A stretch of 12,334 nt of DNA from Burkholderiales bacterium (GTDB lineage Bacteria; Pseudomonadota; Gammaproteobacteria; Burkholderiales; Burkholderiaceae_C): positions 1 to 12,334 of the forward strand of contig CANJKD010000017.1 in assembly GCA_947474415.1 (NCBI GenBank), given 5' to 3'. How positions within the stretch are numbered: the first letter of the stretch is position 1; the number at the start of each line of letters is the position of its first letter. Position numbers and translations under genes: made by a program. Under the pieces are notes generated by a model. That model was not told where the DNA came from. It worked only from the letters and a program-made list of their open reading frames with translations, and ran no database searches. Positions 1-12,334 of the stretch are shown piece after piece.

Positions 1-316
1 AATCTGCGTCGATGCGGTCGAGGCCGAGGTGCGGCTCGCCCCGGCAGGCGCCTTCTACCTCGTGCTGACCCATGACCATGACCTCGACCTGCGCATCACC
101 GAAGTCATTCTGAAGCGCGCCGACTTCGCCTACCTCGGCCTGATCGGTTCGAAGACGAAGCGGCAGCGCTTCATTCACCGGTTCGAGCAACGCGGCATCG
201 ACCCCGAAGCCATCGCGCGCATGAGCTGCCCGATCGGTGTCGGCGGCGTCAGTGGCAAGGAGCCCGAACGCATCGCCATCAGCGTGGTGGCGCAGTTGCT
301 GCAGCGCGTGGCCTGA
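1..316 (+). CDS. xdhC: XdhC, xanthine dehydrogenase accessory protein (3' end only)
   Basis: This is the C-terminal part of an XdhC-family protein, read in the frame whose first full codon is at base 2; the start lies outside the window. XdhC binds molybdenum cofactor, promotes its sulfuration and delivers it to the XdhB subunit of xanthine dehydrogenase, the enzyme that oxidises hypoxanthine and xanthine in purine breakdown. About 104 residues are visible. The family's C-terminal Rossmann-like domain is recognisable from LTHDHDLD, then YLGLIGSKTKRQRF, then the block CPIGVGGVSGKEPERIAISV just before the end. The stop TGA (314-316) directly abuts the stop of the convergent phospholipase D gene, leaving no room for a terminator between them. 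No frameshift is seen. Family assignment is firm; the upstream xdhA and xdhB genes are only presumed. Confidence 0.9.
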   Translation, partial: ICVDAVEAEVRLAPAGAFYLVLTHDHDLDLRITEVILKRADFAYLGLIGSKTKRQRFIHRFEQRGIDPEAIARMSCPIGVGGVSGKEPERIAISVVAQLLQRVA

Positions 317-1903
317 TCAGAGCTGCTCGACCGGCACGAACGGCTTGAGCAGCCACGACTTGATGCGCAACCACGGCGTCGAATCAGGCTCTTCGTGCAG
401 CACCATTTCGCGCTCGCCATCGTTGCTCAGCCATTCCAGCCCCTTGCCGTTCGGCCCCAGCCGCACCCGGTAGGCGCTTTGCAGCCGGTCGATGTCGATG
501 ATGCGCAGCAACTCGCGGGCGAGCGGCGGGCTGTCGATCATGGCGCCGAGTTCGGTGTTGATGGTGGCCGAGCGCGGGTCGAGATTCATCGAGCCGATGA
601 ACAGCCGCTTCTTGTCGATCACCACCAGCTTCGCGTGCAGCCGCCCGAGCGACTTGCCGAACAGAAACATGCGCTTGTTCTCGCGCAGCCGCGACGAACT
701 GAGCTCGTACAGGTCGACGCCCATGCGCAGCAGTTCCTCGCGGTAGTGGCTGTAGCCGATGTGCACGATCGGCTCGTCGGTCGAGGCGAGCGAATTGGTC
801 ATCACCGTGATCTTCACGCCACGGCTGCGCAGCTCGTGCAGCATCTCCATGCTGGTCGGCCCCGGCACGAAGTACGGTGAAGACGCCACCACCTCCTGCT
901 GCGCCGAGCGGATCGCCTCGAAGACGTTGTAGGTGACGCTGGTTTCAGCCAGTTCGCCGCCCACTTCGCCGTCGAAGGGTTTGTCGGGGTGGTCGGCGAA
1001 CACATAGGCCTCGCCCCAGATCAGGCCGAGCCGGCCGAGGTCGAGGTCGTCGGCGATGGGCCCGTAGCCGAGGATGTCGTTCGGCGGCAGTTCGGCCGGC
1101 GGCGGCGTGTTGACCGGGCCGGTCCAGTCTTCGAAACGGGCCCGCAACTCGGCCGGCGAGAGGTCGGTTTTTGCGACCGCTTCGAGCGGAAACACCGGGT
1201 CGCTGTTCCAGTAGCGGTCGAATAGATATTGCAACGGTGGCACGACCCAGCCGGTGGTGAAGGCGTCGACGTCGACGAAGTTTTCGGACCTGCTGCGCAG
1301 GTAGTACTCGTTCGCCACATTGCGCCCGCCGATCACGGCCATCGCGCCATCGGCGATGAACAGCTTGTTGTGCATGCGGTGGTTCACGCGTGACCACTCG
1401 TTGGCCGATGCAATGAAGCGGCCGCCCTGCCCGTGCTCACGCGCGCAGCAGAACGGGTTGAACAGCCGCACCTGCACGTTCTTGTGGGCCGCGAATGCAA
1501 GCCACAGCGGGTCTTGCCCGCCGGTGTAGAGGTCGTCGATCAGCAGGCGCACGCGCACGCCGCGCTCGGCCGCATCACGCAGCGCACGCAACAGCCAGCG
1601 GCCGGTCTCGTCGTTCTCGAAGTGGTAGTACTGAACGTCGAGCGAGACCTCGGCGCGGCGCGCCAACTGCACCCGCGTGTCGAGCGAGAACAGGCCGAGT
1701 GGCATGAGCCGGAAGCCCGACACTTCGGGCGATGGTGCCGAGCGCTGCGCCATGCCACCCAGCGTCGTTTGCGCGCTGATCGGGATCGCCTCACTGGCGA
1801 TGACCGCGCGGTTCACGGCCGGCAGCGTGCTGCAGGCGCCGAGCAACAGCGCCAGGGCGAGTATCGCGAACCGGCACAAGAACTCACCCGGCGCGCGTTT
1901 CAT
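317..1903 (-). CDS. Phospholipase D-family lipoprotein (cardiolipin synthase-like)
   Basis: A 528-residue member of the phospholipase D superfamily, which makes or breaks phosphodiester bonds through a phosphohistidine intermediate. Two catalytic HxKxxxxD motifs are intact: H178-K180-D185 (HNKLFIAD, followed by GGRN) and H423-K425-D430 (HAKLVVID, followed by GSMN). The N-terminus has a hydrophobic segment (about residues 12-22) ending in a lipobox, LGAC with Cys24, so it is probably a lipoprotein in the cell envelope. The two-HKD layout and length resemble ClsC-type cardiolipin synthases and related 'PLD-like' lipoproteins; the real substrate cannot be read from sequence. The start ATG (1901-1903) overlaps the stop of the upstream methyltransferase as ATGA, so translation is probably coupled. 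Nothing looks damaged. Confidence 0.9.
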   Translation of the reverse strand: MKRAPGEFLCRFAILALALLLGACSTLPAVNRAVIASEAIPISAQTTLGGMAQRSAPSPEVSGFRLMPLGLFSLDTRVQLARRAEVSLDVQYYHFENDETGRWLLRALRDAAERGVRVRLLIDDLYTGGQDPLWLAFAAHKNVQVRLFNPFCCAREHGQGGRFIASANEWSRVNHRMHNKLFIADGAMAVIGGRNVANEYYLRSRSENFVDVDAFTTGWVVPPLQYLFDRYWNSDPVFPLEAVAKTDLSPAELRARFEDWTGPVNTPPPAELPPNDILGYGPIADDLDLGRLGLIWGEAYVFADHPDKPFDGEVGGELAETSVTYNVFEAIRSAQQEVVASSPYFVPGPTSMEMLHELRSRGVKITVMTNSLASTDEPIVHIGYSHYREELLRMGVDLYELSSSRLRENKRMFLFGKSLGRLHAKLVVIDKKRLFIGSMNLDPRSATINTELGAMIDSPPLARELLRIIDIDRLQSAYRVRLGPNGKGLEWLSNDGEREMVLHEEPDSTPWLRIKSWLLKPFVPVEQL

Positions 1904-2508
1904 GCGGCGACCCCCGGCTTGCGGGCGATGACGGTTTCAAACACCTTGTGCGTACCGCCCGGCGCTTCGAAATCGCTGGATTCGGCATGCAGGATCGACC
2001 AGCCACTGAAGTGCCGTGCCAGTTCAGCGCGTGCGAACAGGCAGTGGTCTTGCGCCTCGAACATGTCGAGGTAGGTCGTGCCTTCGACCAGCACGTTGAC
2101 CGCCGCCACGCCGCCGCCACGCACGTGCGCCTGCAACTGCGTGAGCATGCGAAGTGCCGTGGCGCAGTCGAAGAACATCAGCAGGCCGATCGACACGACG
2201 GCATCGAAGTCTTCGTGGAGCGCATGGTCGCGCAGGTCGGCCAGGCCGGCCTCGACCGCCAGCGCCGTGTCAGCGGCACGTTGCCGAATGTGCGTGATGG
2301 CAGCCGGGCTGGCATCGAGCGCGAGCACCGAAGAACCCCGCGCGGCGGCGGCGAACGCCAGGTTGCCCATGCCGCAGCCGAAGTCGAGCACGTGCCCGCG
2401 CAGGTACGGGAGGGCGGCCTGCTCGAACGGGTTGAGGGCGAAGTCTTCGCCGCGCGCCTGCCGTTCAAATTGCGCGTCGAAAAACTGCACGCTGTGGCTG
2501 GGGTTCAT
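1900..2508 (-). CDS. Class I SAM-dependent methyltransferase (TehB-like)
   Basis: A 202-residue protein with the Rossmann-fold signature of class I methyltransferases: motif I VLDFGCGMGNL at residues 40-50, the acidic end of beta-2 at VLALD (Asp65), and FDAVVSIGLLMFF in the motif IV region. The C-terminal part (VLVEGTTYLDMF, CLFARAELARHFSGW, FEAPGGTHKVFETVIARKP) resembles the TehB/tellurite-resistance methyltransferase group, which methylates chalcogen oxyanions or small thiols. The substrate here is unknown, so no gene symbol is given. There is no signal peptide, so it should be cytoplasmic. It is the first gene of a two-gene unit with the phospholipase D lipoprotein, sharing an ATGA overlap. 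Its upstream region faces the riboswitch-protease gene, so the two units are divergent. Confidence 0.85.
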   Translation of the reverse strand: MNPSHSVQFFDAQFERQARGEDFALNPFEQAALPYLRGHVLDFGCGMGNLAFAAAARGSSVLALDASPAAITHIRQRAADTALAVEAGLADLRDHALHEDFDAVVSIGLLMFFDCATALRMLTQLQAHVRGGGVAAVNVLVEGTTYLDMFEAQDHCLFARAELARHFSGWSILHAESSDFEAPGGTHKVFETVIARKPGVAA

Positions 2509-2729
2509 GTCGGGTGGGCGGTTCGGTGGTGGTCATTCCGGGCGCAAACTGCGGTGCCGAGTCATCCGATTCAGTATGCCGCAAGCGCGCGCCGCGCAGG
2601 CATGAGTCGATGCACAGCGCCATTCCTGACCACGCGCTGCTGCGACGCAATGCGCCGATTTGCACCAACAAGTTCTCGGATTTGGGCAGATCACCCGCCA
2701 GCGCACGCGCCGCTCGCCCGAACGCTGCC
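2509..2729. other. Intergenic stretch between divergent units
   Basis: About 220 bases between the methyltransferase start and the putative promoter of the riboswitch transcript. Short open frames cross it, but none has a convincing ribosome binding site or a recognisable protein. It should contain the methyltransferase promoter on the minus strand, but I could not point to clear -35/-10 boxes. Confidence 0.5.
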
Positions 2730-2735
2730 TAGAAT
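2730..2735 (+). promoter_or_regulatory. Possible -10 box for the riboswitch-protease transcript
   Basis: TAGAAT matches the sigma-70 -10 consensus TATAAT at five of six positions. A start about 6-8 bases downstream (near 2741-2743) would place the 5' end of the RNA just before the riboswitch aptamer, which is where such aptamers usually begin. No good -35 box is visible at the expected distance, so an activator or another sigma factor is possible. The call rests mainly on position. Confidence 0.4.
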
Positions 2736-2740
2736 TTCAA

Positions 2741-2830
2741 CGTCACATTCCGCAAACCACGTGAAAGCGTGGGACGCAAAGCCTCCGGCCTACAGCGCTC
2801 AGCGCCACGGCAGCGGGGCCGCCGGTCCGC
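2741..2830 (+). ncRNA. Cyclic di-GMP-I (GEMM-I) riboswitch aptamer
   Basis: The stretch matches the GEMM-I aptamer, which binds the second messenger cyclic di-GMP. After AAACC, a stem (C2757-T2762 with G2767-G2772) is capped by the GAAA tetraloop at 2763-2766. It is followed by the near-invariant block GGGACGCAAAGCC (2771-2783), then TCCGGCCTA (2784-2792). The second arm contains CGGC-AGCGGG-GCCG (2808-2821), which corresponds to the hairpin carrying the tetraloop receptor (Vc2-type 'GGTAGCGGGGTTACC'). The outer closing stem P1 could not be paired with confidence. It lies 37 bases before the start of the S8 protease gene in the same orientation, so it should regulate that gene. Recognition is from memory of the family consensus; a covariance-model search would settle it. 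Confidence 0.93.
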
Positions 2831-2861
2831 ACGCGCGGGCTGGCCTCGATCGAACCGAGGC
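2823..2861 (+). promoter_or_regulatory. Putative riboswitch expression platform: hairpins, one hiding the ribosome binding site
   Basis: Two adjacent hairpins follow the aptamer. The first pairs GTCCGC (2825-2830) with GCGGGC (2835-2840) around ACGC and can extend by two pairs. The second pairs GCCTCG (2843-2848) with CGAGGC (2856-2861) around a 7-base loop. The 3' arm of the second includes GAGG (2857-2860), the only good Shine-Dalgarno sequence before the ATG at 2868. There is no U-tract, so control is more likely at translation initiation than by termination. The first hairpin starts inside the 3' edge of the aptamer arm, which offers a way for ligand binding to influence the fold. The direction of the switch (on or off) cannot be deduced. 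Confidence 0.6.
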
Positions 2862-2867
2862 ATCTTC

Positions 2868-4697
2868 ATGAAAATTCGCCAGCGCCACCTTTCATGCATG
2901 TTCACGCCTGTGGCCATTGCCGCGTTGGCCTGCGTTCTGTCTGCAGCCGTGCAGGCCCGGGAAATCCAGAGCACCGAGGAACGCACTGCATGGCCGGCGG
3001 CAGCCACCCACACCGACCGGCTGATCGTGAAGTACCGCAACGGCAGCGGAGGCTTCCCAACCGCACGCGCCGCAGCGGCGACCCAGGTGGCCGCGAACCG
3101 GCAGGGCGTGCAGATCAGCCACCTCCGGCAGACGGCCAGCGGCGCGCAAGTGTTCAGGCTGAGCCGCCGCATGACCCACAACGAGGTCGAAGTCATCGCG
3201 GCCAGCCTGCGCGCCGGCGACGCGAACATCGAGTACGCCGAGCCCGACCGCCTGCTGCAACCCAGCTACGTGCCGAACGATGCGATGTACCCGCAGCAGT
3301 GGGCCCTGTCCGACCCGACCGGCGGCATTCGCGCGCCCACGGCCTGGGACCGAACCACCGGCACCGGTGTGGTGGTGGCCGTGATCGACACTGGCGTGCG
3401 CCCGCACGCCGACCTCGTGGCGAACTTGCTGCCCGGCTACGACTTCATCACCGACACCTTCATCTCGAATGACGGCAACGGCCGCGATGCCGACGCCTAC
3501 GACCCCGGCGATGCCGTGCCGGCCGGCTATTGCGCTGCAGGCTCTGCGGCGCACAACAGCTCCTGGCACGGCACGCATGTGGCGGGCATCATCGCAGCCG
3601 CCACCGGCAACGGCGCGGGCGTGGCCGGGGTGGCCTTCGGTGCCCAAGTGCTGCCCTTGCGCGCACTGGGGCGCTGCGGTGGCTACACGTCCGACATCGC
3701 CGATGCGATTCTCTGGGCTGTTGGCGGCACGGTCGGCAGCTTGCCGCTGAACACGACACCGGCGCGCGTGATCAACCTGTCGCTGGGCGGCTCGGGCGCC
3801 TGCGACACGACCACGCAGAACGCCATCAACACGGCCCGCGCGAAGGGCGCCGTGGTGGTGGTGGCAGCCGGCAATGATAACGCCGCCGCGAACAACTCGT
3901 CCCCGGCCAACTGCAGCGGCGTGATCGCGGTGGCGGCCACCGACAAGGGCGGTGGCAAGGCCTCGTATTCGAACTTCGGCAGCAATGTGGCGCTGGCGGC
4001 ACCGGGCGGCGACAGCGGCGCCGGCATCCTGTCTACGCTCAACGCCGGCACCACGGTGCCGGGCGCCGACAGCTACGCGTCGTACATGGGCACCTCGATG
4101 GCGACACCCGTCGTCAGTGGCGCGGCGGCGCTGATGATCTCGGCGAACATGGCGCTCACGCCGGACCAGATTGCGGCCATGCTGAAGAGCAGCGCCCGTG
4201 TGTTCCCGGCCGCGTGCTCGGGTTGCGGTACCGGCATCGTCGACGCCAGCGCGGCGGTGTCGCTCGCGCTGGGGGCACCTGCACCTGCACCTGCACCTGC
4301 ACCTGCACCTGCACCTGCACCAGCGCCGGCACCAACGCCAGCCGCCGTGACCGAGTCGACCGCAGCGAATGACACGGTCGCAACGGCGCAAGTCATCGCC
4401 GCCTTGCCGGCGACCGTCTCGGGTGCCATCAGCAGCAACACCGACCTCGACCACTTCAAGATCTCGATCGCCGCGGGCAAGAAGCTCACCTTGACGCTGA
4501 CCGCAGGCGCTTCCTCGGGCTTCGGCATCGGCGTGTTCACGGCGGCCGGGCAGCAGTTGCTGCTGGTGCCCGGCGTGGTGGGGCGAACCCAGCAGGTGGC
4601 CATCACGAACAGCGGCACGGGCGCGGCGCAAGTGGTGATCCGCGTGATGCGCTCCGCCGGCAAGACCGGAGCCTACCGGCTGGCGATGGTCTATTGA
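2868..4697 (+). CDS. Secreted S8 family serine protease (subtilase) with PPC-like domain
   Basis: A 609-residue exported subtilisin-type endopeptidase. The start ATG at 2868 is chosen because it begins a clear signal peptide (about residues 1-30, ending AVQA) and follows GAGG by seven bases. An upstream in-frame ATG at 2769 lies inside the riboswitch. Residues about 48-140 look like an inhibitor_I9-type propeptide (RLIVKYR near its start, ANIEYAEPD near its end). The catalytic triad is intact: Asp174 (VAVIDTG), His234 (HGTHVAG) and Ser410 (GTSMATP), with oxyanion Asn336 (AAGNDN). An Ala-Pro linker (from residue 470) leads to a C-terminal beta domain resembling bacterial pre-peptidase C-terminal (PPC) domains (NTDLDHFKISI; final TGAYRLAMVY), usually removed on maturation. 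Expression is probably governed by cyclic di-GMP through the leader. The substrate is unknown. Its 3' end overlaps the truncated dehydrogenase gene. Confidence 0.95.
   Translation: MKIRQRHLSCMFTPVAIAALACVLSAAVQAREIQSTEERTAWPAAATHTDRLIVKYRNGSGGFPTARAAAATQVAANRQGVQISHLRQTASGAQVFRLSRRMTHNEVEVIAASLRAGDANIEYAEPDRLLQPSYVPNDAMYPQQWALSDPTGGIRAPTAWDRTTGTGVVVAVIDTGVRPHADLVANLLPGYDFITDTFISNDGNGRDADAYDPGDAVPAGYCAAGSAAHNSSWHGTHVAGIIAAATGNGAGVAGVAFGAQVLPLRALGRCGGYTSDIADAILWAVGGTVGSLPLNTTPARVINLSLGGSGACDTTTQNAINTARAKGAVVVVAAGNDNAAANNSSPANCSGVIAVAATDKGGGKASYSNFGSNVALAAPGGDSGAGILSTLNAGTTVPGADSYASYMGTSMATPVVSGAAALMISANMALTPDQIAAMLKSSARVFPAACSGCGTGIVDASAAVSLALGAPAPAPAPAPAPAPAPAPAPTPAAVTESTAANDTVATAQVIAALPATVSGAISSNTDLDHFKISIAAGKKLTLTLTAGASSGFGIGVFTAAGQQLLLVPGVVGRTQQVAITNSGTGAAQVVIRVMRSAGKTGAYRLAMVY
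4275..4322 (+). repeat. Hexanucleotide microsatellite (GCACCT) encoding Ala-Pro repeats
   Basis: Seven perfect tandem copies of GCACCT (4275-4316) are followed by a GCACCA variant (4317-4322), within the protease linker. The repeat is in frame, each unit giving Ala-Pro. Because the unit is six bases, gain or loss of copies changes linker length without breaking the frame. Confidence 0.95.
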
Positions 4698-5278
4698 TCC
4701 AGCGGCCGCATCCGTCGGCGTGATCTGCCGGCGCCGGTCACCACCGCGTACTCGCCCGGCACCAGATGGCGCGACGCCTTCTTCGCGGCGCGGTAGGCGG
4801 TCAGGCCGGCGTCGGTGTACGGCGCCACGTCTTTCGGCGCCAGCGTCTGCGGCAGCTTGATCAGGGAGCGCTGGCCGGTGCGCAGGTACTCGGCATAGCC
4901 GCCGTCGGCATTGATGCCGGGGAAGCGGCTGTCTTCGGCATGCATGTCGTTGCCGCGCCGGCACGCCAGGCAGTGGCCACTCGTCACCAGCGGGTGGCAG
5001 ATGACGGCGTCACCGATCTTCAGGCCGGTGACGGCCGAGCCCATTGCCTCGACCCACCCGACGTTCTCGTGACCCATGATGTCAGGCAGCTTGACCTCGA
5101 CCTTGTCGCTCCAGATGCCTTCGACCACGTGCAGGTCGGTGCGGCACACCCCGGCGCCGCCGATGCGCACAATCACGTCGGTCAGGTTTTCTATTTCTGG
5201 ATCGGGCACGTCTTCGTAGTGAACGAAGGCGGCGCTGCTCAGCGACTTGTCGTACTGGTGCAGTACTGCGGCTTTCAT
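4691..5278 (-). pseudogene. Zinc-type alcohol dehydrogenase, 3' half missing
   Basis: The N-terminal 184 residues or so read as a medium-chain NAD(P)-dependent alcohol dehydrogenase beginning MKAAVLHQYDK at 5278, preceded by GGAGA. Visible features are the catalytic-zinc region GVCRTDLH (Cys45), GHE (His70-Glu71) and a Cys/His-rich loop (CHPLVTSGHCLAC, residues 94-106). Homology stops at VVTGAG (residues 179-184), exactly where the Rossmann nucleotide-binding motif should continue GxGxxG. About 11 unrelated residues follow before a stop that overlaps the 3' end of the protease gene. Family members are about 340-350 residues, so nearly all of the coenzyme-binding domain is lost. The remaining polypeptide could not bind NAD(P) and is almost certainly inactive. 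The break lies near 4726, with about 29 bases between it and the protease stop. Confidence 0.88.
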
Positions 5279-5586
5279 GATTCGTCTCCAGGGGATCGGA
5301 TGGTGGTGGAAGAGCCTGGCGCTGCCCCGTTTCGATGCTGCTGGTACGCAACCGGCATGCCGCGCGCAGACGCATCGCACGCAGCCACTCCGAGCCGTTG
5401 ATTCCAATGAAAAAGTAACCGGGCCGTCGCGGTTTACCCGCAACCAGGGTTGCACACCGGGTGTCGCGGGATCGGTCGCATGAACGGGCCGTGAGGCGGC
5501 CCCGCGCGTCTCGAATTGCGACAGCGTTTTCCCTTGGGTGGCCCGCACGGGCGGATGCGAATGTTCCCGGCTGCTGCCGCATTCCC
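5279..5586. other. Intergenic region between two broken genes
   Basis: About 308 bases between divergently oriented gene remnants. One short perfect inverted repeat, GCAACC-AG-GGTTGC (5440-5453), is flanked loosely by ACCC and GGGT and could be an old operator or just a stem. No convincing promoter boxes, RNA genes or coding frames were found. Confidence 0.4.
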
Positions 5587-6470
5587 ATGCCATCCAGGCC
5601 CGCCGTGAAGAAGCCCGATCGCCCGCGCAAGTCGCACCACCGGCACGCCGGTTTCCAGAACAACGACCTCGACTTCTCCGGCAAGTCGCTCGCCCAGGTG
5701 CTGCGCTGGCGCTGGGACGCGCAGCGCAACGGCCTGCCGCCACGGGCCGACGCGGCACCAGCCGCCCGGCGTGATGCTGGATGCGCTGCCGCATGTCGAT
5801 CTGGTGCTGGCTTCGCACCACCACCACCACCACCTCGACCACCTCGACGAGGCCTCGATCTGCGGCATGGCTGGCCGACAGGGGCGTGCACCACGCGATC
5901 GAGCTCGACTGGTGGGAACGGCATCAGGTCGAGGGCGTGGAGGTGACGCTCGTGCCGGCCCAGCACTGGTCGGGGCGTGGCGTCACCGACCGCATGAAGA
6001 CGCTGTGGGGCGGGTTCGCGGTGCTGGCCCCCGATTGCCACCTGTTCTTCGCGGGCGACACCGGGTACTCGCGTGACTTCGAAGACATCCGCAGCCACTT
6101 TGCCGAACGGCAGGCTGCCCACGCAGGCGGCGGCTTCGACATCGCCCTGCTGCCGATCGGTGCCTACGAGCTGCGGTGGTTCATGGCCGGGCAACACGTC
6201 AATGTCCACGAGGCGGTGAAGATCCAAGGCGACCTCGGCGCCAAGCGCTCGCTCGGCGTGCACTGGGGCACGTTCGAGCTCACCGACGAAGCGCTCGACA
6301 AACCGCCCCGCGCGCTGGGCCGGCTGCGTGCGGCCGAGGGCATTCACGAGAACGACTTCTTTGTGATGGCGATCGGCGAGACGCGAATCGTGCCGCGCCG
6401 CGCCACGCCTGCGCCCATACTGGCACCCTTTCGGCGCTCAGACGCCGCAGCCGACCCAGGAGGCCATTGA
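5587..6470 (+). pseudogene. Metallo-beta-lactamase-fold hydrolase (NAPE-PLD/UlaG-like), broken by deletions
   Basis: Three successive reading frames carry consecutive pieces of one protein. Frame A (from ATG 5587) gives HAGFQNNDLDFSGKS...RNGLPP. Frame B (about 5750-5862) gives QPPGVMLDALPHVDLVLAS, a His tract and LDHLDEASI, which holds the zinc-binding HxHxDH. Frame C (from about 5868) gives WLADRGVHHAIELDWWE, VTLVPAQHWSGR, FFAGDTGYSRDF, LGVHWGTFELTDE and runs to the stop at 6468-6470. Intact relatives have extra sequence at both joins, including the WIGHAT and DPIFS region at the first, so two internal deletions with frame changes are inferred. The family hydrolyses phosphodiesters such as N-acyl-phosphatidylethanolamine or phosphorylated sugars; this copy should be inactive. 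Its stop abuts the next gene's ATG, so they were probably an operon. Confidence 0.85.
5816..5833 (+). repeat. CAC trinucleotide tract in the metal-binding motif
   Basis: Six consecutive CAC codons (His) precede CTCGACCAC, so the broken hydrolase reads six histidines and then LDHLD, where relatives have SHNHYDHLD or similar. HxHxDH can still be read (HHHLDH), so the tract looks like a slippage expansion that preserved the motif. Confidence 0.8.
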
Positions 6471-7058
6471 ATGGACAAGCGGCGCTTTCTCATGACCGGG
6501 GCACTACTCGGTGCCACCTTGCCTGCGCGGGCCCTGGCGGCCCCTTCCAGGGCCCGCGCGGGCCCGTGTCTGCTGACCGTGACCGGCGAGATCGGCCGCA
6601 GCAACCGGGGCCCGCTGGACCCGGCGCTGGATCAGCTGATGGTGAAGCACGGCGCAAAGTTCGACAAGGCCTGGGCGCTCGATACCGCCATGCTGGCCCG
6701 GCTGCCGGCCATGACCATCCAACCCACGCTCGAGTACGACGCGAAGCCGCACAAGCTGAGCGGCCCGCTGCTCGCAACGGTGCTCGCCGAAGCCGGCGTC
6801 GCGGCGCGCGCGCCGGTGATGCTGGGCCTGCGTGCGCTCGACGGCTACACCATCGCGCTGAGCCTGGCCGATGCCCAGCGCTACCGGATGATCGTGGCCA
6901 CGGCACTCGACGGCGTGCCGCTGGGCCTTGGCGGCCTGGGCCCGCTGTGGGCCGTCTACGACGCCGACCGGCTGCCCGACTTCAAGGGCAAGCCGCTCAA
7001 GGAGCGCTTCGCGCTCTGCCCATGGGGCCTGTACGCCATCGACGTGAAGCCGGTCTGA
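6471..7058 (+). CDS. Small exported molybdopterin-domain (sulfite oxidase-fold-like) protein
   Basis: A 195-residue protein with an excellent ribosome binding site, AGGAGG (6458-6463), seven bases before the ATG. The N-terminus MDKRRFLMTGALLGATLPARALA is a signal sequence with a Tat-like KRRFLM core, suggesting periplasmic export, possibly folded. The mature part (LLTVTGEIGRSNRG, LPAMTIQPTLEYD, LSGPLLATVLAEAG, LGGLGPLWAVYDAD, ERFALCPWGLYAIDV) resembles the short 'molybdopterin-dependent oxidoreductase' proteins common in Proteobacteria, related to the sulfite oxidase/YedY molybdopterin domain. No clear molybdenum-ligating Cys is evident beyond the one in ALCPWG, so enzymatic activity is uncertain; such short proteins may act with a sensor or as a binding domain. 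It directly follows the broken hydrolase and is itself intact. Confidence 0.78.
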   Translation: MDKRRFLMTGALLGATLPARALAAPSRARAGPCLLTVTGEIGRSNRGPLDPALDQLMVKHGAKFDKAWALDTAMLARLPAMTIQPTLEYDAKPHKLSGPLLATVLAEAGVAARAPVMLGLRALDGYTIALSLADAQRYRMIVATALDGVPLGLGGLGPLWAVYDADRLPDFKGKPLKERFALCPWGLYAIDVKPV

Positions 7059-7137
7059 GATGGGGCACCCGGCACCGGGGTACCGGCGCCACCCGCCAAG
7101 CGGGTACACGGGCCGCTTGGGGCGGCCCGGCGCTGGC
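7059..7137. repeat. 79-bp structured repeat, copy A
   Basis: First of two head-to-tail copies with a period of 87 bp, differing at one position (G7064 versus C7151). Each contains a 6-bp stem ACCCGC-CAA-GCGGGT (7091-7105) and a 7-bp stem GGGCCGC-TTGGG-GCGGCCC (7110-7128), plus an overlapping CCAAGCGG/CCGCTTGG pairing. It starts just after the stop of the molybdopterin-domain gene. It looks like a REP/BIME-type extragenic palindromic element; it might also act as a transcription stop, though no U-tract follows. Confidence 0.85.
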
Positions 7138-7145
7138 CCGTGTCG

Positions 7146-7224
7146 GATGGCGCACCCGGCACCGGGGTACCGGCGCCACCCGCCAAGCGGGTACACGGGC
7201 CGCTTGGGGCGGCCCGGCGCTGGC
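7146..7224. repeat. 79-bp structured repeat, copy B
   Basis: Second copy, 78 of 79 bases identical to the first and separated from it by 8 bases (7138-7145). It ends one base before the first CRISPR repeat, so the palindromic element and the array remnant are almost fused. Confidence 0.85.
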
Positions 7225-7225
7225 T

Positions 7226-7315
7226 GGTTCATCCCCACGCACGTGGGGAACGCCAGGTTTTCGACGGTGGCCGCGAGGGTCGCGGCGGTTCATCCCCACG
7301 CACGTGGGGAACGCC
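7226..7315 (-). CRISPR. Type I-E CRISPR remnant: two repeats, one spacer
   Basis: Two identical 29-base repeats (7226-7254 and 7287-7315) flank one 32-base spacer (7255-7286), a 61-base period exactly as in type I-E systems. On the plus strand each reads GGTTCATCCCC...GGGGAACGCC with the stem CCCCACGC/GCGTGGGG-like pairing. The minus strand therefore matches the usual I-E repeat orientation (GTTCCCC...GGGGATGAACC), the same strand as the cas3 fragment. Beyond 7315 about 24 bases (7316-7339) look like a truncated second spacer before cas3 sequence begins. No leader or cas1/cas2 genes are present, so acquisition is impossible from this locus alone. The spacer's target could not be identified. 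Confidence 0.92.
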
Positions 7316-7534
7316 TCATGGACGACATCGGCGCCGACACCAATCGACGACAGCCTCTTCACTGGACCCGACCGCAGCCGCAAGCCAGCGCCTCAAGCCC
7401 GGCGCGCGATTCAGGTAGACACGGCCCGCCGCCGCCACATCCAGGCAGTGGTACGGCAGCAGGTGGTACGCGGCCACCGCATCACCCGACGGGCGGGCCT
7501 TGCCCCAATACCGGTAGAAGGCCGGCACGCTCAT
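7316..7534 (-). pseudogene. cas3: cas3 fragment, N-terminal end only (type I-E helicase-nuclease)
   Basis: About 65 residues match the N-terminus of type I-E Cas3, the nuclease-helicase that degrades DNA marked by Cascade: [18 protein letters not shown], then [15 protein letters not shown] (first part of the HD nuclease domain with its leading His), then [11 protein letters not shown] and EEAVVDW. Homology ends near 7340. The following codons (CRRRCRP, stop at 7316-7318) are array sequence read through. Full-length Cas3 is roughly 880-950 residues and the HDxGK metal site should come next, so the product is inactive. The start chosen is ATG 7532-7534, because it begins the conserved YWGK region and overlaps a short upstream ORF as ATGA. 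An in-frame ATG at 7633 would add 33 residues of unknown character. Confidence 0.88.
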
Positions 7535-7605
7535 CTCGGCAGCCCGCTCACCACGAACGGCAAGCTGCGGGACTGATTCGGGCTCCAGGTGCGGGTTGTC
7601 AGCAT
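7531..7605 (-). CDS. 24-codon ORF overlapping the cas3 start
   Basis: ATG at 7605 follows a strong Shine-Dalgarno sequence, GGAGGTGA (7616-7609), with six bases between GGAGG and ATG. It encodes [20 protein letters not shown] plus GLPR, and its TGA overlaps the cas3 ATG (ATGA). By my count 21 of 24 third codon positions are G or C, against 15 of 24 in the cas3 frame over the same stretch, so this frame looks more like translated DNA. It may be a leader peptide that couples cas3 translation, or the true cas3 N-terminus put out of frame by an indel. It matches no family I know. Confidence 0.4.
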
Positions 7606-7645
7606 GCGTCACCTCCGGTTGCGGTGCGCGCATCTTAGGGTGCCT

Positions 7646-7694
7646 ACTGGCTCACCAGATGAGCCAGTCAGGAAAAGTACAAACAATTCCTGAC
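7646..7694. promoter_or_regulatory. Two interlocked inverted repeats upstream of cas3
   Basis: A perfect 9-bp inverted repeat ACTGGCTCA (7646-7654)/TGAGCCAGT (7660-7668) with a 5-base gap overlaps by two bases a second perfect 8-bp repeat GTCAGGAA (7667-7674)/TTCCTGAC (7687-7694) with a 12-base gap. They lie between the stop of ttuD and the cas3 leader, on the side where the cas promoter should be. The first has the size of a dimeric repressor operator. Neither is followed by a T-run on either strand, so a simple terminator is unlikely. Confidence 0.5.
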
Positions 7695-7725
7695 AGCGCA
7701 CCCGGCCGGCCAATCGCCGGAAAAC

Positions 7726-9099
7726 TCACACCACCAGCACCGCCCGAAAGTCATTCACGTTCGTGAACGTCGGCCCCGGCACCACCAGGTCGGCGAGCGG
7801 AGCGAAGAAGTTGTAGGCGTCGTTGCGATCAAGGAACTCCTGCGGCTTCAGGCCTTGCGCCTGCGCCCGCGCCAGCGTGGTCGGCGTGACGATGGCGCCG
7901 GCGTTGTCTTCGACACCGTCGATGCCATCGGTGTCGGCTGCCAGCACGTGCACACCGGGCTCGCCCTGCAGCGCGATCACACAGCCGAGCAGGAACTCGG
8001 TGGCGCGGCCGCCTCGCCCCGGCCTGGCGCCGGGGCCCTGTAACCCATCCGGCCTGGCGCCGGGGCCTGGTGGCCGTTCGCCCAGGCTCTGGACGGGCAC
8101 GGTCGTTTCACCGCCCGACAGGATCACGCACGGCTTCTGGAACGGCTGGCCGTGGCGCGCCACGTAGCGCGCCAGCGCCGCGTGCACCTTGCCGACCTCG
8201 CGTGACTCGCCTTCCATCTCGTCGCTCAGCACATGCACGCCGATGCCGGCCTGGCGCGCCAGCGCAGCGGCGGCTTCGAGCGACTGCTTCGGCGTGGCGA
8301 TCATGTGGACCTGGTGGCCAGCAAACACCGCATCGCCCGGCTTCGGGGTCTCGAAGGCGCCGCTCTCGAGCCCCGCGCGGGCCGCCGCCGGAATGTCGAT
8401 GGCGTAGCGCGCGAGGATGCGCAACGCATCAGCGCAAGTGGTTGAATCGGGCACGGTCGGGCCACTGCCGATGACTTCGGGCGCATCACCGGGCACATCG
8501 CTGATCAGCAGCGTGACAACCCGCGCCGGCGCGCACATCGCGGCCAGCCGGCCGCCCTTGATGGCTGACAAGTGCTTGCGCACGCAGTTCATCTCGTCAA
8601 TGGCCGCACCGGAGCGAAGCAGCGCCTTGTTGATGGCCTGCTTCTCTTCCAGCGCGATGCCTTCGGCCGGCATCGCCAGCAACGACGACGCGCCGCCCGA
8701 CATCAGGCACAGCACGAGGTCGTGTTCCGTCAGGCCTTGCGTGAGTTCGGCGATGCGTTGCGCGGCGCGGCGGCCGGCTTCGTCGGGCACCGGGTGCGCG
8801 GCCTCGACGACTTCGATGCGGCCAGGGTTTGTCTTGTAGGCCGGCGGCACATAGTCGTAGCGCGTGACGACCAGCCCCGACATGGGCGCGCCCTTCGGCC
8901 ACAGCGCATCGACCGCCGCCGCCATTGAGCCGCCGGCCTTGCCGGCACCGAGCACCAAGGTTCGGCCGCCTTTGGAGGCATCGGGCGGCGCGGGCAGGAA
9001 CGCCGCCATTTCCGCGCCGGGCACGGCCTGCGCGACCGCCGCGTTGAACAACGCCAGCAGGAAGCCGCGTGGGTCGGAGTGGGGTGAAGGAATGGTCAT
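7726..9099 (-). CDS. ttuD: Glycerate 2-kinase (TtuD/GckA, MOFRL family)
   Basis: A 457-residue D-glycerate kinase that phosphorylates D-glycerate to 2-phosphoglycerate with ATP, feeding the product of the glyoxylate pathway into lower glycolysis. Hallmarks of the DUF4147/MOFRL fold are present: LVLGAGKAGGSMA (residues 48-60), VEAAHPVPDEAG, LMSGGASSLLAMP (132-144), LISDVPGDAPEVIGSGPT, ILSGGETT, GRGGRATEFLLG and AADTDGIDG. It is about 30 residues longer than usual. Much of the excess is a Gly/Pro/Arg stretch around residues 338-362 that contains a 10-residue tandem duplication (345-354 and 355-364) just before GRGGRATEF. The frame is kept, so the protein may still work. It is the last gene of the gcl-hyi-glxR-ttuD series, separated from glxR by a palindromic element; the ribosome binding site is weak. 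Confidence 0.93.
   Translation of the reverse strand: MTIPSPHSDPRGFLLALFNAAVAQAVPGAEMAAFLPAPPDASKGGRTLVLGAGKAGGSMAAAVDALWPKGAPMSGLVVTRYDYVPPAYKTNPGRIEVVEAAHPVPDEAGRRAAQRIAELTQGLTEHDLVLCLMSGGASSLLAMPAEGIALEEKQAINKALLRSGAAIDEMNCVRKHLSAIKGGRLAAMCAPARVVTLLISDVPGDAPEVIGSGPTVPDSTTCADALRILARYAIDIPAAARAGLESGAFETPKPGDAVFAGHQVHMIATPKQSLEAAAALARQAGIGVHVLSDEMEGESREVGKVHAALARYVARHGQPFQKPCVILSGGETTVPVQSLGERPPGPGARPDGLQGPGARPGRGGRATEFLLGCVIALQGEPGVHVLAADTDGIDGVEDNAGAIVTPTTLARAQAQGLKPQEFLDRNDAYNFFAPLADLVVPGPTFTNVNDFRAVLVV
8019..8067. repeat. 30-bp-period direct repeat of a GC-rich palindromic unit inside ttuD
   Basis: The 19-base unit beginning CCGGCCTGGCG occurs identically at 8019-8037 and 8049-8067. Each contains the palindromic centre GGCGCC flanked by GGCC ends. 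On the minus strand the units encode GPGARP twice (residues 345-350 and 355-360) in an exact 10-codon tandem. Confidence 0.9.
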
Positions 9100-9126
9100 G
9101 CGCGATTATCCGATGCGACGGTGCTT

Positions 9127-9233
9127 GCTCCCTCGCCACGTTGGGGAGTGGGCTTGGGTGAGGGGCTGCGCGCCCCGCCAATATATGTCCGCAGGCCCTC
9201 ACCACAACCCTCTCCCAAAAGGAGTGGGAGTGC
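9127..9233. repeat. Long imperfect inverted repeat between ttuD and glxR
   Basis: The left arm (9127-9170) and right arm (9190-9233) are imperfect reverse complements of about 44 bases, with the best pairing near the tip: GGGTGAGGG (9155-9163) against CCCTCACC (9196-9203), and CTGCG (9166-9170) against CGCAG (9190-9194). The 19-base loop includes AATATAT. The stem fills most of the 138-base gap between the two genes. It resembles the REP- or MITE-like palindromes scattered in Burkholderiales intergenic regions. It could end or attenuate the operon message, or protect the upstream mRNA. Confidence 0.7.
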
Positions 9234-9237
9234 TCTC

Positions 9238-10173
9238 TCAGCCCTTCGGATCGGGCGCGACCGGGTGGTTCGCCATCAGCTCCAGCGCCTTGACGAGCGC
9301 CGAATGATCGAGGTTGGCCATGCCGTTGGCGGCGCACACCTGCATCAGCTGCGCCGCACCGGCGGTCTGCGGCAGCGCCACGCCCAAGGCCCGCGCGCCA
9401 GCCAGCGCCAAGCTCAAATCCTTCTGGTGCAGGCCGATGCGGAAGCCCGGGTTGAACGTGCGTTTGATCATGCGTTCGCCATGCACTTCGAGGATGCGCG
9501 AGGCCGCGAAGCCGCCCATCAGGGCCTGGCGCACCTTGGCCGGGTCGGCGCCGGCCTTGCTGGCGAACAGCAGCGCTTCGCCGACCGCCGCGATGTTCAG
9601 CGCGACGATGATCTGGTTCGCGACCTTGCAGGTCTGGCCGTCACCGTTTGCCCCGACCAGCGTGATGTTCTTGCCCATCAATTCGAACAGCGGCCTGATG
9701 CGCTCGAACGCGGCATCGGGGCCGCCGACCATGATGGTCAGCGTCGCCGCCTTCGCGCCCACTTCGCCGCCCGAGACCGGCGCGTCGAGGTAGTCGCAGC
9801 CGAGGGCGTTGATCCTGGCTGCGAACGCCTTGGTTTCGATCGGCGAGATCGAGCTCATGTCGACGACGGTCTTGCCGACGCGGCCGTCAGGGCCGCGTGC
9901 CGATGCAGAGAGGCCTGCAGCCACGCCCGCTTCGCCGAACAGCACCGCCGCCACATCGGGCGTGTCGGGCACCATCGTGAAGATCACGTCGGCCTGCTCG
10001 GCCACGGCCTGGGCGCTCGCGCACAGCGTGGCACCGGCCGCCGTGATCTCGGCGGGCACCTTGCTGCGGGTGAAGACGAACAGCGCGTGCCCGGCCTTGG
10101 CGAGCTGGCCAGCCATTGGCGCGCCCATGATGCCCAGGCCGATGAAGCCAAGCTTGAGGGAAGTGGTGGTCAT
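9238..10173 (-). CDS. glxR: Tartronate semialdehyde reductase (2-hydroxy-3-oxopropionate reductase)
   Basis: A 311-residue member of the beta-hydroxyacid dehydrogenase family that reduces tartronate semialdehyde to D-glycerate using NAD(P)H. The N-terminal dinucleotide motif GLGIMG is at residues 12-17. The substrate-binding DAPVSGGEVGA is at 130-140. The catalytic lysine region GDGQTCKVANQ contains Lys183 and Asn186. The C-terminal helical domain (FRIGLHQKDLSLAL) is complete. Compared with GarR/GlxR proteins of about 292-296 residues it has a small insertion, roughly SARGPDGRV at 91-99, encoded by a GC-rich inverted repeat. It follows hyi by 84 bases on the same strand and has no strong ribosome binding site. 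The neighbourhood (gcl, hyi) supports glxR rather than garR. Confidence 0.93.
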   Translation of the reverse strand: MTTTSLKLGFIGLGIMGAPMAGQLAKAGHALFVFTRSKVPAEITAAGATLCASAQAVAEQADVIFTMVPDTPDVAAVLFGEAGVAAGLSASARGPDGRVGKTVVDMSSISPIETKAFAARINALGCDYLDAPVSGGEVGAKAATLTIMVGGPDAAFERIRPLFELMGKNITLVGANGDGQTCKVANQIIVALNIAAVGEALLFASKAGADPAKVRQALMGGFAASRILEVHGERMIKRTFNPGFRIGLHQKDLSLALAGARALGVALPQTAGAAQLMQVCAANGMANLDHSALVKALELMANHPVAPDPKG

Positions 10174-10257
10174 GACGGTGTCCGCGGTGGTGGGGTCGTG
10201 AGGTGGGCGCTTCTTGAGCGCTCGTTGGTCGCTCGTTGGGCGCCTGTCTGGGGCCGC
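10174..10257 (-). other. Intergenic gap between hyi and glxR
   Basis: An 84-base spacer inside the glyoxylate gene series. It contains an 11-base-period tandem of CGCTCGTTGG (10219-10228 and 10230-10239). There is no clear terminator or promoter, so read-through from hyi is likely. Confidence 0.5.
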
Positions 10258-11055
10258 TCAGGATTGTCGCCGCGCGCGCTCCAGCCAGCCCAGGCCGGCT
10301 TCGGTGGTGGTGGCGGGCTTGTACTCGCAGCCGACCCAGCCGGCGTAGCCCATGCGGTCGAGCGCCGCGAACACGTTGTCGTAGTTGATCTCGCCGCTGC
10401 CGGGTTCGTTGCGGCCGGGGTTGTCGGCCAGCTGCACGTGGGCGATGCGGGCGAGGTGCTTCTGCATCGTCGCGATCAACTCGCCTTCCATGCGCTGTGC
10501 GTGGTAAATGTCGTATTGCACGCAGACGTTGTCCGCGTTGGGGTCGAGCGCCAGCTCGTCGATGAGGGCCAGCGCCTGCGCCGTGCGGTTCAGGTAGAAG
10601 CCGGGAATGTCGAAGGTGTTGATCGGCTCGATCAGCAGCTTCAGGCCCGCCTTCTTGAGTTCGGCAGCGGCGTAGCGCAGGTTGTTGACGAAAGTGTCTC
10701 GAAGCGCATCGTCGGTCACGCCGCGCGGCGCCTTGCCGGCCAGGCAATTCAGCTGCGGCACGCCGAGCACCTTCGCGTACCCGATCGCACGGCCGACGCC
10801 GTCGCGGAACTCGGCCACGCGGTCGGGGTGGCAGGCGATGCCGCGTTCGCCGGCATCCCAGTCACCGGCCGGCAGGTTGTGCAGCACCAGCGTCAGGCTG
10901 TGGTCGGCAAGGCGCTGGTGGATGTCGGCGGCCTCGAAGGCATAGGGGAACAGGAACTCGACGGCCTTGAAACCGGCGCCGGCGGCGCGCTCGAAGCGGT
11001 CGAGAAAGGGATGCTCGGTGAAGAGCATCGTGAGGTTGGCGGCGAAGCGGGGCAT
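10258..11055 (-). CDS. hyi: Hydroxypyruvate isomerase
   Basis: A 265-residue TIM-barrel enzyme of the xylose isomerase-like family that interconverts hydroxypyruvate and tartronate semialdehyde. It opens with PRFAANLTMLFTEHPFLDRF, typical of Hyi. Probable metal-binding or catalytic glutamates are Glu143 (LLIEPINTFDIPGFYL) and Glu244 (VGCEYKP). The signatures VQYDIYHAQRMEG (179-191) and HVQLADNPGRNEPGSGEINY (206-225) are complete. Length is close to the family's 258-265. An AAGGA ribosome binding site lies in the 10-base gap after the gcl stop, so hyi is almost certainly co-transcribed with gcl. In this pathway it is an accessory step that lets hydroxypyruvate enter or leave the tartronate semialdehyde pool. 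Confidence 0.95.
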   Translation of the reverse strand: MPRFAANLTMLFTEHPFLDRFERAAGAGFKAVEFLFPYAFEAADIHQRLADHSLTLVLHNLPAGDWDAGERGIACHPDRVAEFRDGVGRAIGYAKVLGVPQLNCLAGKAPRGVTDDALRDTFVNNLRYAAAELKKAGLKLLIEPINTFDIPGFYLNRTAQALALIDELALDPNADNVCVQYDIYHAQRMEGELIATMQKHLARIAHVQLADNPGRNEPGSGEINYDNVFAALDRMGYAGWVGCEYKPATTTEAGLGWLERARRQS

Positions 11056-11065
11056 GACGCGTTCC

Positions 11066-12334
<1,269 letters not shown>

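Follow-up and report, generated by a model that had tools for sequence, protein, structure and literature searches.

A cyclic di-GMP-I aptamer and two overlapping hairpins precede an S8 subtilase gene in one lineage of Burkholderiales

The stretch of Burkholderiales bacterium DNA analyzed here (contig CANJKD010000017.1 of assembly GCA_947474415.1, positions 1 to 12,334; hereafter, the window, 12,334 nt long) carries a cyclic di-GMP class I (c-di-GMP-I, or GEMM-I) aptamer ahead of a gene for an S8 subtilase. Between the aptamer and the start codon lie two hairpins that overlap. The aptamer is conserved before one clade of proteases, the first hairpin (hairpin A) covaries among the related leaders, and the second, which holds the likely Shine-Dalgarno sequence, is conserved. 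Judging from the sequence, this is very likely a genuine cyclic di-GMP RNA switch ahead of a secreted protease gene, and the leader is probably a c-di-GMP-I riboswitch through which high c-di-GMP levels repress translation of the protease.

The cmscan search of the whole window against Rfam 15 placed RF01051 (c-di-GMP-I) at 2741-2826 of the forward strand, with 66.8 bits (E 1.3e-11; gathering score, 35 bits) and an untruncated alignment over positions 1-87 of the 87 in the model. It was the sole match above the gathering score listed for the window on both strands. Compared to the Rfam consensus, the match has a single deleted position and a single non-standard pair (A-C), and 41 nt separate the end of the aptamer from the ATG of the subtilase gene (2868). 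The initial annotation had recognized the aptamer by its GEMM-I hallmark blocks (GAAA, GGGACGCAAAGCC, CCGGCCTA, and AGCGGGG), which do lie where it had put them, and had proposed the RF01051 model as a check. The match is significant and full length, and together with the pairing conserved in relatives it bears out the proposed aptamer ahead of the subtilase gene. The informative part of the leader is its expression platform, on which that annotation was silent. The genome of the window, a 2.9-Mb assembly that is 68% complete, has this RF01051 match only. A Hammerhead_II match on the reverse strand (9506-9583; 26.1 bits versus 37, E 0.097) falls within a coding gene and was taken as a chance hit.

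In the platform of the window, GCCGGUCCGC pairs with GCGGGCUGGC over 10 bp to form hairpin A. The likely Shine-Dalgarno sequence, GAGG, ends 7 nt 5' of the ATG and is enclosed in the second hairpin. Hairpin A and the Shine-Dalgarno hairpin overlap at the GC of 2843-2844 and, because both use these two bases, only one of them can be complete. Both hairpins were present in all 16 leaders of window-type proteases, hairpin A having 5-10 pairs without interruption and the Shine-Dalgarno hairpin 5-7 pairs. Furthermore, RNAalifold recovered, unguided, the aptamer and both hairpins (33 pairs, 10 of them changed on both sides).

Hairpin A is the better attested of the two by covariation. When each leader was read with its own arms, 147/160 cells paired, compared to a mean of 120.9 and a maximum of 135 in 2000 swaps of arms among loci; on the alignment, 94.4% of 144 cells paired, and sliding the partner strand cut the pairing to 16-50%. 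The covariation score was 0.519 versus 0.203, and 22 cells were changed on both sides versus 6.1 expected, values that none of 500 shuffles reached in either case, with the shuffles leaving the kinship among the leaders in place. Hairpin A is particular to the window-type protease leaders: a similar run from the aptamer end, at a shuffle p of at most 0.02, was found in 11/16 of them and in 1/143 of the other leaders.

The same structure recurs in leaders outside this set. A covariance model built on the 16 leaders (R1) was run on 399 genomes of the window's family and gave bimodal scores, with 19 genomes at 94.7 bits or more and the next at 78.1. Fourteen of these 19 were already in R1 and five were new. 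Each of the five new leaders precedes a high-scoring S8 protease (602-726 bits with our own S8 profile), and in their hairpin A 46/50 cells pair, compared to 37.8 with the arms of other loci; in one of them (L262), the U that usually faces G is replaced by C, and the pair is kept. In the 16 leaders and these five together (21/21), the base opposite aptamer C84 is G, and at most loci this base is not part of the 6-bp Shine-Dalgarno stem. In a sample of 300 genomes of the order, R1 exceeded 80 bits for the window and for genome G091 alone, both already in the model. In the family and order genomes searched, no complete platform turned up outside the window's family.

The sequence and the folding models suggest how the leader may work. 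Without ligand, the aptamer 3' strand (2821-2830) would zip onto 2835-2844 as the 10-bp hairpin A which, once complete, would take the GC at 2843-2844 and leave a weak 4-bp stem over GAGG. The base at 2822, the equivalent of Vc2 C92, presumably contacts c-di-GMP in class I aptamers, and thus 2821-2823 should be unavailable to hairpin A once the aptamer is occupied. With c-di-GMP bound, the aptamer would hold these three bases, the GC would be released, the Shine-Dalgarno stem would grow from 4 to 6 bp, and initiation would fall. Low c-di-GMP accompanies motility and dispersal; thus, with an OFF switch of this kind, motile or dispersing cells would make the protease and cells in biofilms would not. 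A protease produced at low c-di-GMP could serve matrix release or feeding.

The energetics are consistent with this scheme. In both sequence and models, the Shine-Dalgarno sequence sits inside a stem predicted to be only partly formable while hairpin A is complete. The global states modeled for the window were -54.4 with hairpin A complete and -52.1 with the Shine-Dalgarno stem complete and the aptamer 3' bases free, and the state assigned to the ligand-free RNA was the lower one, by 0.7-2.7 kcal/mol, in 20/21 leaders. This small predicted gap is what binding of the ligand could overturn. Deprived of the shared bases, the Shine-Dalgarno stem was 6.8-7.0 kcal/mol weaker in 15/16 leaders and 9.9 kcal/mol weaker in the remaining one (L116). 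By equilibrium folding, the mean unpaired probability of the Shine-Dalgarno sequence ranged from 0.02 to 0.48 with hairpin A forced and from 0.00 to 0.32 in the bound model, and the sequence was more open with hairpin A in 15/16 leaders, often slightly.

Several observations weigh against a translational OFF switch of this design. The Shine-Dalgarno sequence is mostly paired in both folded states, and the predicted effect of the switch on its openness is modest. In one leader (L027) it is less open with hairpin A, and in another (L116) the alternative global state is favored by 0.4 kcal/mol. The number of hairpin A pairs changed on both sides, 5 versus 3.8, is not unusual (117/500 shuffles). 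The Shine-Dalgarno hairpin, conserved in 95.8% of cells, showed no covariation on the MAFFT alignment, and compensating changes were noted by eye in L032 and L116 only. Covariation offers no test of the three pairs on which the mutual exclusion of the helices depends, as these are invariant. A P1-like helix did not stand out in the 21 protease-type leaders (run of 4.05 versus 4.17 in shuffles) nor at the 143 other aptamer sites (4.65 versus 4.59), a comparison that says nothing either way about a P1 helix. Finally, the distribution is patchy: of the 10 genomes searched in the window's genus, that of the window was the only one with a close protease. The best full-length protease matches of the other genus genomes are about 41-51% identical, and the whole-leader model gave at most 62.4 bits, or no match, in those listed, several of the genus assemblies being incomplete.

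A different pairing, between 2842-2848 (GGCCUCG) and the CGGGGCC of the aptamer (2814-2820), was seen by eye and dropped as the main model, because the unconstrained fold of the window keeps the aptamer helix and because hairpin A has covariation. The unconstrained folds of L145 and L116 depart from the aptamer helix kept in the window.

The opposite polarity was also considered, in which the same riboswitch acts as an ON switch, with the ligand opening the Shine-Dalgarno sequence, for instance by stacking that involves hairpin A or by an alternative fold, and the protease is an enzyme of the biofilm. Riboswitches may act on or off according to context (PMC6366702), and PMC9262584 describes the highly homologous cyclic-dinucleotide riboswitch pilM as an ON switch; the L027 model, with a more open Shine-Dalgarno sequence in the bound state, goes in the same direction. 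Against this, the Shine-Dalgarno stem is predicted to be complete solely in the state that an occupied aptamer would allow, and 15/16 leaders lean toward OFF, which makes an ON switch unlikely. The aptamer could instead act on the elongation or stability of the transcript, by Rho-dependent termination or access of an RNase, the role of the Shine-Dalgarno hairpin being then limited to adjusting basal translation. It is generally known that translational riboswitches can have a coupled transcript-level effect, and the title of one paper couples a translational platform with Rho-dependent termination. The conserved part of the leader, however, stops at the start codon and has the Shine-Dalgarno sequence in a stem in 16/16 leaders, so that we consider action at the transcript level quite unlikely. 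A scan of the window at 2560-2900 found no intrinsic terminator (0 sites), that is, no terminator hairpin with a T run, and intrinsic termination was judged unlikely on this ground; the result leaves room for Rho. Repression of translation by bound c-di-GMP is the reading that we retain.

The identity of the ligand can be approached from the predicted pocket. The bases G 2752, A 2779, and C 2822, which we take to be the equivalents of Vc2 G20, A47, and C92, are unchanged across 16/16 leaders. The G20 equivalent is presumably the base that sets the preference for c-di-GMP or cyclic GMP-AMP (cGAMP), and the A expected there of a cGAMP-type (GEMM-Ib) aptamer was found in none of the 16 leaders, all of which have the G of the c-di-GMP type. 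A different cyclic dinucleotide, such as 3',3'-cGAMP, is thus very unlikely to be the ligand, and cGAMP specificity was set aside on the basis of the G at 2752 and in 16/16 leaders. PMC6274999 discusses cGAMP with a GEMM-I aptamer carrying G20A, and cGAMP-sensing riboswitches were initially annotated as c-di-GMP-sensing (PMC9262584). As for a decayed or chance aptamer-like sequence devoid of function, the one deletion and the one non-standard pair relative to the Rfam model would speak for it. The score of 66.8 bits, the related leaders with covarying stems across several genera, and the five leaders that were unused in model building and precede the same protease type make this extremely improbable.

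We then evaluated how often the pairing of aptamer and S8 protease recurs. RF01051 was present in 88/299 genomes of the window's family and in 8/10 genomes of its genus. Within the family, an S8 protease (own S8 profile) lies downstream of 36/157 aptamer sites, and in a Pfam tally S8 was the commonest downstream family, with 34/150 open reading frames (ORFs) and the next families at 5 each. The tally covered 150 of 154 downstream ORFs, with 3/157 sites having no ORF of 60 amino acids, and aptamer sites of related genomes are non-independent. In the order sample, leader model R1 had an S8 protease behind 6/30 fetched loci, the window and G091 among them. The other downstream families across the window's family include sensor domains (Cache, PAS, HAMP), ShlB-type transporters, GGDEF, and FliE. 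Three genomes (G258, G075, and G271) have six c-di-GMP-I aptamers each.

Among 120 family genomes, all 6 other genomes with an S8 protease scoring at least 624 bits to that of the window have RF01051 just upstream. Two loci found by protein similarity (L032 and L033; 67 and 64% identity) have the aptamer directly upstream; seven other, more distant loci scanned alongside have no RF01051, and L041 and L042 were left out of the RNA-family scan. Before more distant proteases, RF01051 was found in 0/20 loci of one set and 0/14 of another, absence meaning no match above threshold in the fetched locus (flank up to about 1.5 kb, less at contig ends). In a tree of 71 proteins, the 16 window-type, aptamer-bearing proteases form a single group with a support of 100 in the Shimodaira-Hasegawa-like approximate likelihood ratio test (SH-aLRT), 14 of these members having been collected for their aptamer and 2 by protein similarity. 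The 34 aptamer-less proteases fall outside this group. Another 21 aptamer-bearing S8 proteases are located elsewhere in the tree, and the starred branches require no fewer than two changes among these; the rooting is arbitrary and one locus is omitted (L082, where the second aptamer of G258 precedes an S8). In the genus itself, the aptamer of genome G301 (L053) is followed by a different S8 protease.

The odds seem even to us that the window-type leader is a lineage-specific riboswitch subtype, in which the 3' strand of a c-di-GMP-I aptamer, a switching strand, and a Shine-Dalgarno strand make up a relay of two hairpins exchanging two GC pairs. On this reading, the relay was inherited with one clade of secreted subtilases, its protease would be an enzyme of the dispersal phase whose translation c-di-GMP represses, and subtilases of other clades of the same family would have acquired c-di-GMP-I aptamers separately. 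Two S8 loci of another lineage, L142 and L155 (G081 and G185), have by eye a similar layout of different sequence directly 3' of the aptamer: GCCGG at the end of the aptamer is opposite a CCGG farther on, beside GGTCTC/GGAGACC around a possible GGAG ribosome site. Their runs are no better than shuffles (p 0.15 and 0.12), and the design may have arisen a second time here.

The protease comprises a putative signal peptide and a propeptide region, both called by eye, the catalytic residues D174, H234, and S410, an Ala-Pro linker, and a beta-rich C-terminal domain. PF00082 is matched above threshold and the Asp, His, and Ser triad is present, its catalytic roles being those that we assume from subtilisins; D174, H234, N336, and S410 are unchanged in the 17 aligned proteases. 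The protein alignment omits L201 (G111), in which a stop codon lies within the S8 match, which could mean a broken copy or a match overrunning the gene end. The closest solved chain is 5yl7, and the best solved-structure matches, Pseudoalteromonas Pro21717 (5yl7), Bga1903 (7w2a), BprV, and Dichelobacter AprV2, resemble the window protease in the sequence and fold of the catalytic domain. The initial annotation spoke of a PPC-domain subtilase, of which the subtilase part stands. The PPC label (presumably PF04151) is unconfirmed, as the C-terminal 140 amino acids gave no Pfam match to it at E up to 10; residues 501-609 are confidently predicted as an all-beta domain, with a block predicted local distance difference test score (pLDDT) of 84-92, compared to a mean of 68.5 over the whole model. 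A run of CACCTG units at about 4275-4325 encodes the Ala-Pro linker, which differs in length between relatives and is absent from several.

Table 1. Features of the leader and of the protease gene, in window coordinates
Feature	Position	Strand	Remark
TAGAAT, possible -10 element directly 5' of the aptamer (tentative)	2730..2735	+	TANNNT enrichment
c-di-GMP-I (GEMM-I, RF01051) aptamer	2741..2826	+	66.8 bits, model 1-87
G ahead of CAAA, presumed Vc2 G20 equivalent	2752	+	G in 16/16 leaders
GCAAACC block of the aptamer	2752-2758	+	position read from sequence
GAAA of the capped stem	2763-2766	+	position read from sequence
GGGACGCAAAGCC block of the aptamer	2771-2783	+	position read from sequence
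CCGGCCTA block of the aptamer	2785-2792	+	position read from sequence
AGCGGGG block of the aptamer	2812-2818	+	position read from sequence
Hairpin A, 5' arm GCCGGUCCGC: aptamer 3' end and next four bases, including presumed C92 equivalent (2822)	2821..2830	+	
Hairpin A, 3' arm GCGGGCUGGC (switching strand)	2835..2844	+	
Shine-Dalgarno hairpin, 5' arm GCCUCG; 2843-2844 common to hairpin A	2843..2848	+	
Shine-Dalgarno hairpin, 3' arm CGAGGC; GAGG at 2857-2860	2856..2861	+	conserved, without covariation
S8 subtilase, 609 aa	2868..4697	+	PF00082, 190.9 bits

Upstream of the aptamer, a TANNNT motif beginning 20-32 nt 5' of GCAA, a distance range picked post hoc after inspection, was found in 14/21 leaders, compared to a mean of 2.2 (maximum 7) in 500 base shuffles. 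A scan for sigma-70 promoters found none in the window at 2560-2900.

Elsewhere in the window, two identical 29-nt repeats GGTTCATCCCCACGCACGTGGGGAACGCC, 61 nt apart from start to start, occupy 7226-7315 and resemble repeats of type I-E CRISPR (clustered regularly interspaced short palindromic repeats) systems. Beside them, a 105-amino acid ORF on the reverse strand (7316-7633) matches the start of a Cas3 HD domain (PF18019, E 1.2e-9), and repeats and ORF are perhaps a short or eroded CRISPR-Cas remnant. An 87-nt head-to-tail repeat, 94% identical, lies at 7049-7222, at the end of and after the ORF at 6471-7058. An alcohol dehydrogenase ORF (4691-5278, reverse strand) has a match confined to the N-terminal domain (ADH_N), and a metallo-beta-lactamase-like ORF (5600-6470, forward strand) is matched at profile positions 82-200 only; by eye, both look shortened, frameshifted, or affected by assembly errors.

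Precedents exist for each of three elements, namely the riboswitch class, a secreted protease as the controlled gene, and OFF control at translation. What is new to us is the S8 target recurring in one family, the switch-bearing protease clade, and the covarying relay. The initial annotation had called the pairing not a standard example, a view that holds in part: no report of an S8 protease as a class I c-di-GMP target was found in the open-licence PubMed Central (PMC) papers searched, but a secreted-protease precedent exists in Clostridioides difficile PPEP-1, and S8 is the commonest downstream family here. If our reading is correct, a group of environmental bacteria would tie the second messenger of the biofilm/motility decision directly, by RNA alone, to one exported protease. 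The leaders are, moreover, compact natural switches with a clear two-state model and amenable to laboratory testing.

With regard to known systems, the title of a 2018 study by Inuzuka reportedly names masking of the ribosome site for Vc2. The bound form of this Vibrio cholerae class I riboswitch (tfoY) restricts translation (PMC7371385); the likeness to our leader is in this outcome, and the target gene differs. The strand logic resembles that of the C. difficile OFF switch Cd1, whose strands P, A, T, and H pair as A-T when ligand free and as T-H when ligand bound (PMC9262584). Likewise, an aptamer strand would here join the switching strand without ligand, and the switching strand would join a third strand when c-di-GMP is bound; in Cd1, strand H is a terminator strand, whereas its counterpart in the window is the Shine-Dalgarno strand, with exclusion limited to the shared bases. 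The nearest precedent is PPEP-1 (ZmpI, CD2830) of C. difficile, a secreted protease whose gene is controlled by a class I c-di-GMP riboswitch; it is made at low c-di-GMP and frees cells by cutting adhesins (PMC11477304). Both cases have a class I aptamer before a secreted or probably secreted protease. However, PPEP-1 is a metalloprotease and the C. difficile class I switches are described in that paper as transcriptional OFF switches, while the window has an S8 subtilase, a Shine-Dalgarno hairpin, and no terminator found. Since S8 is the commonest downstream family (34/150 ORFs) and more than one S8 clade is involved, our results, if the reading is correct, suggest that placing secreted proteolysis under c-di-GMP is a design that recurs rather than a curiosity of C. 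difficile.

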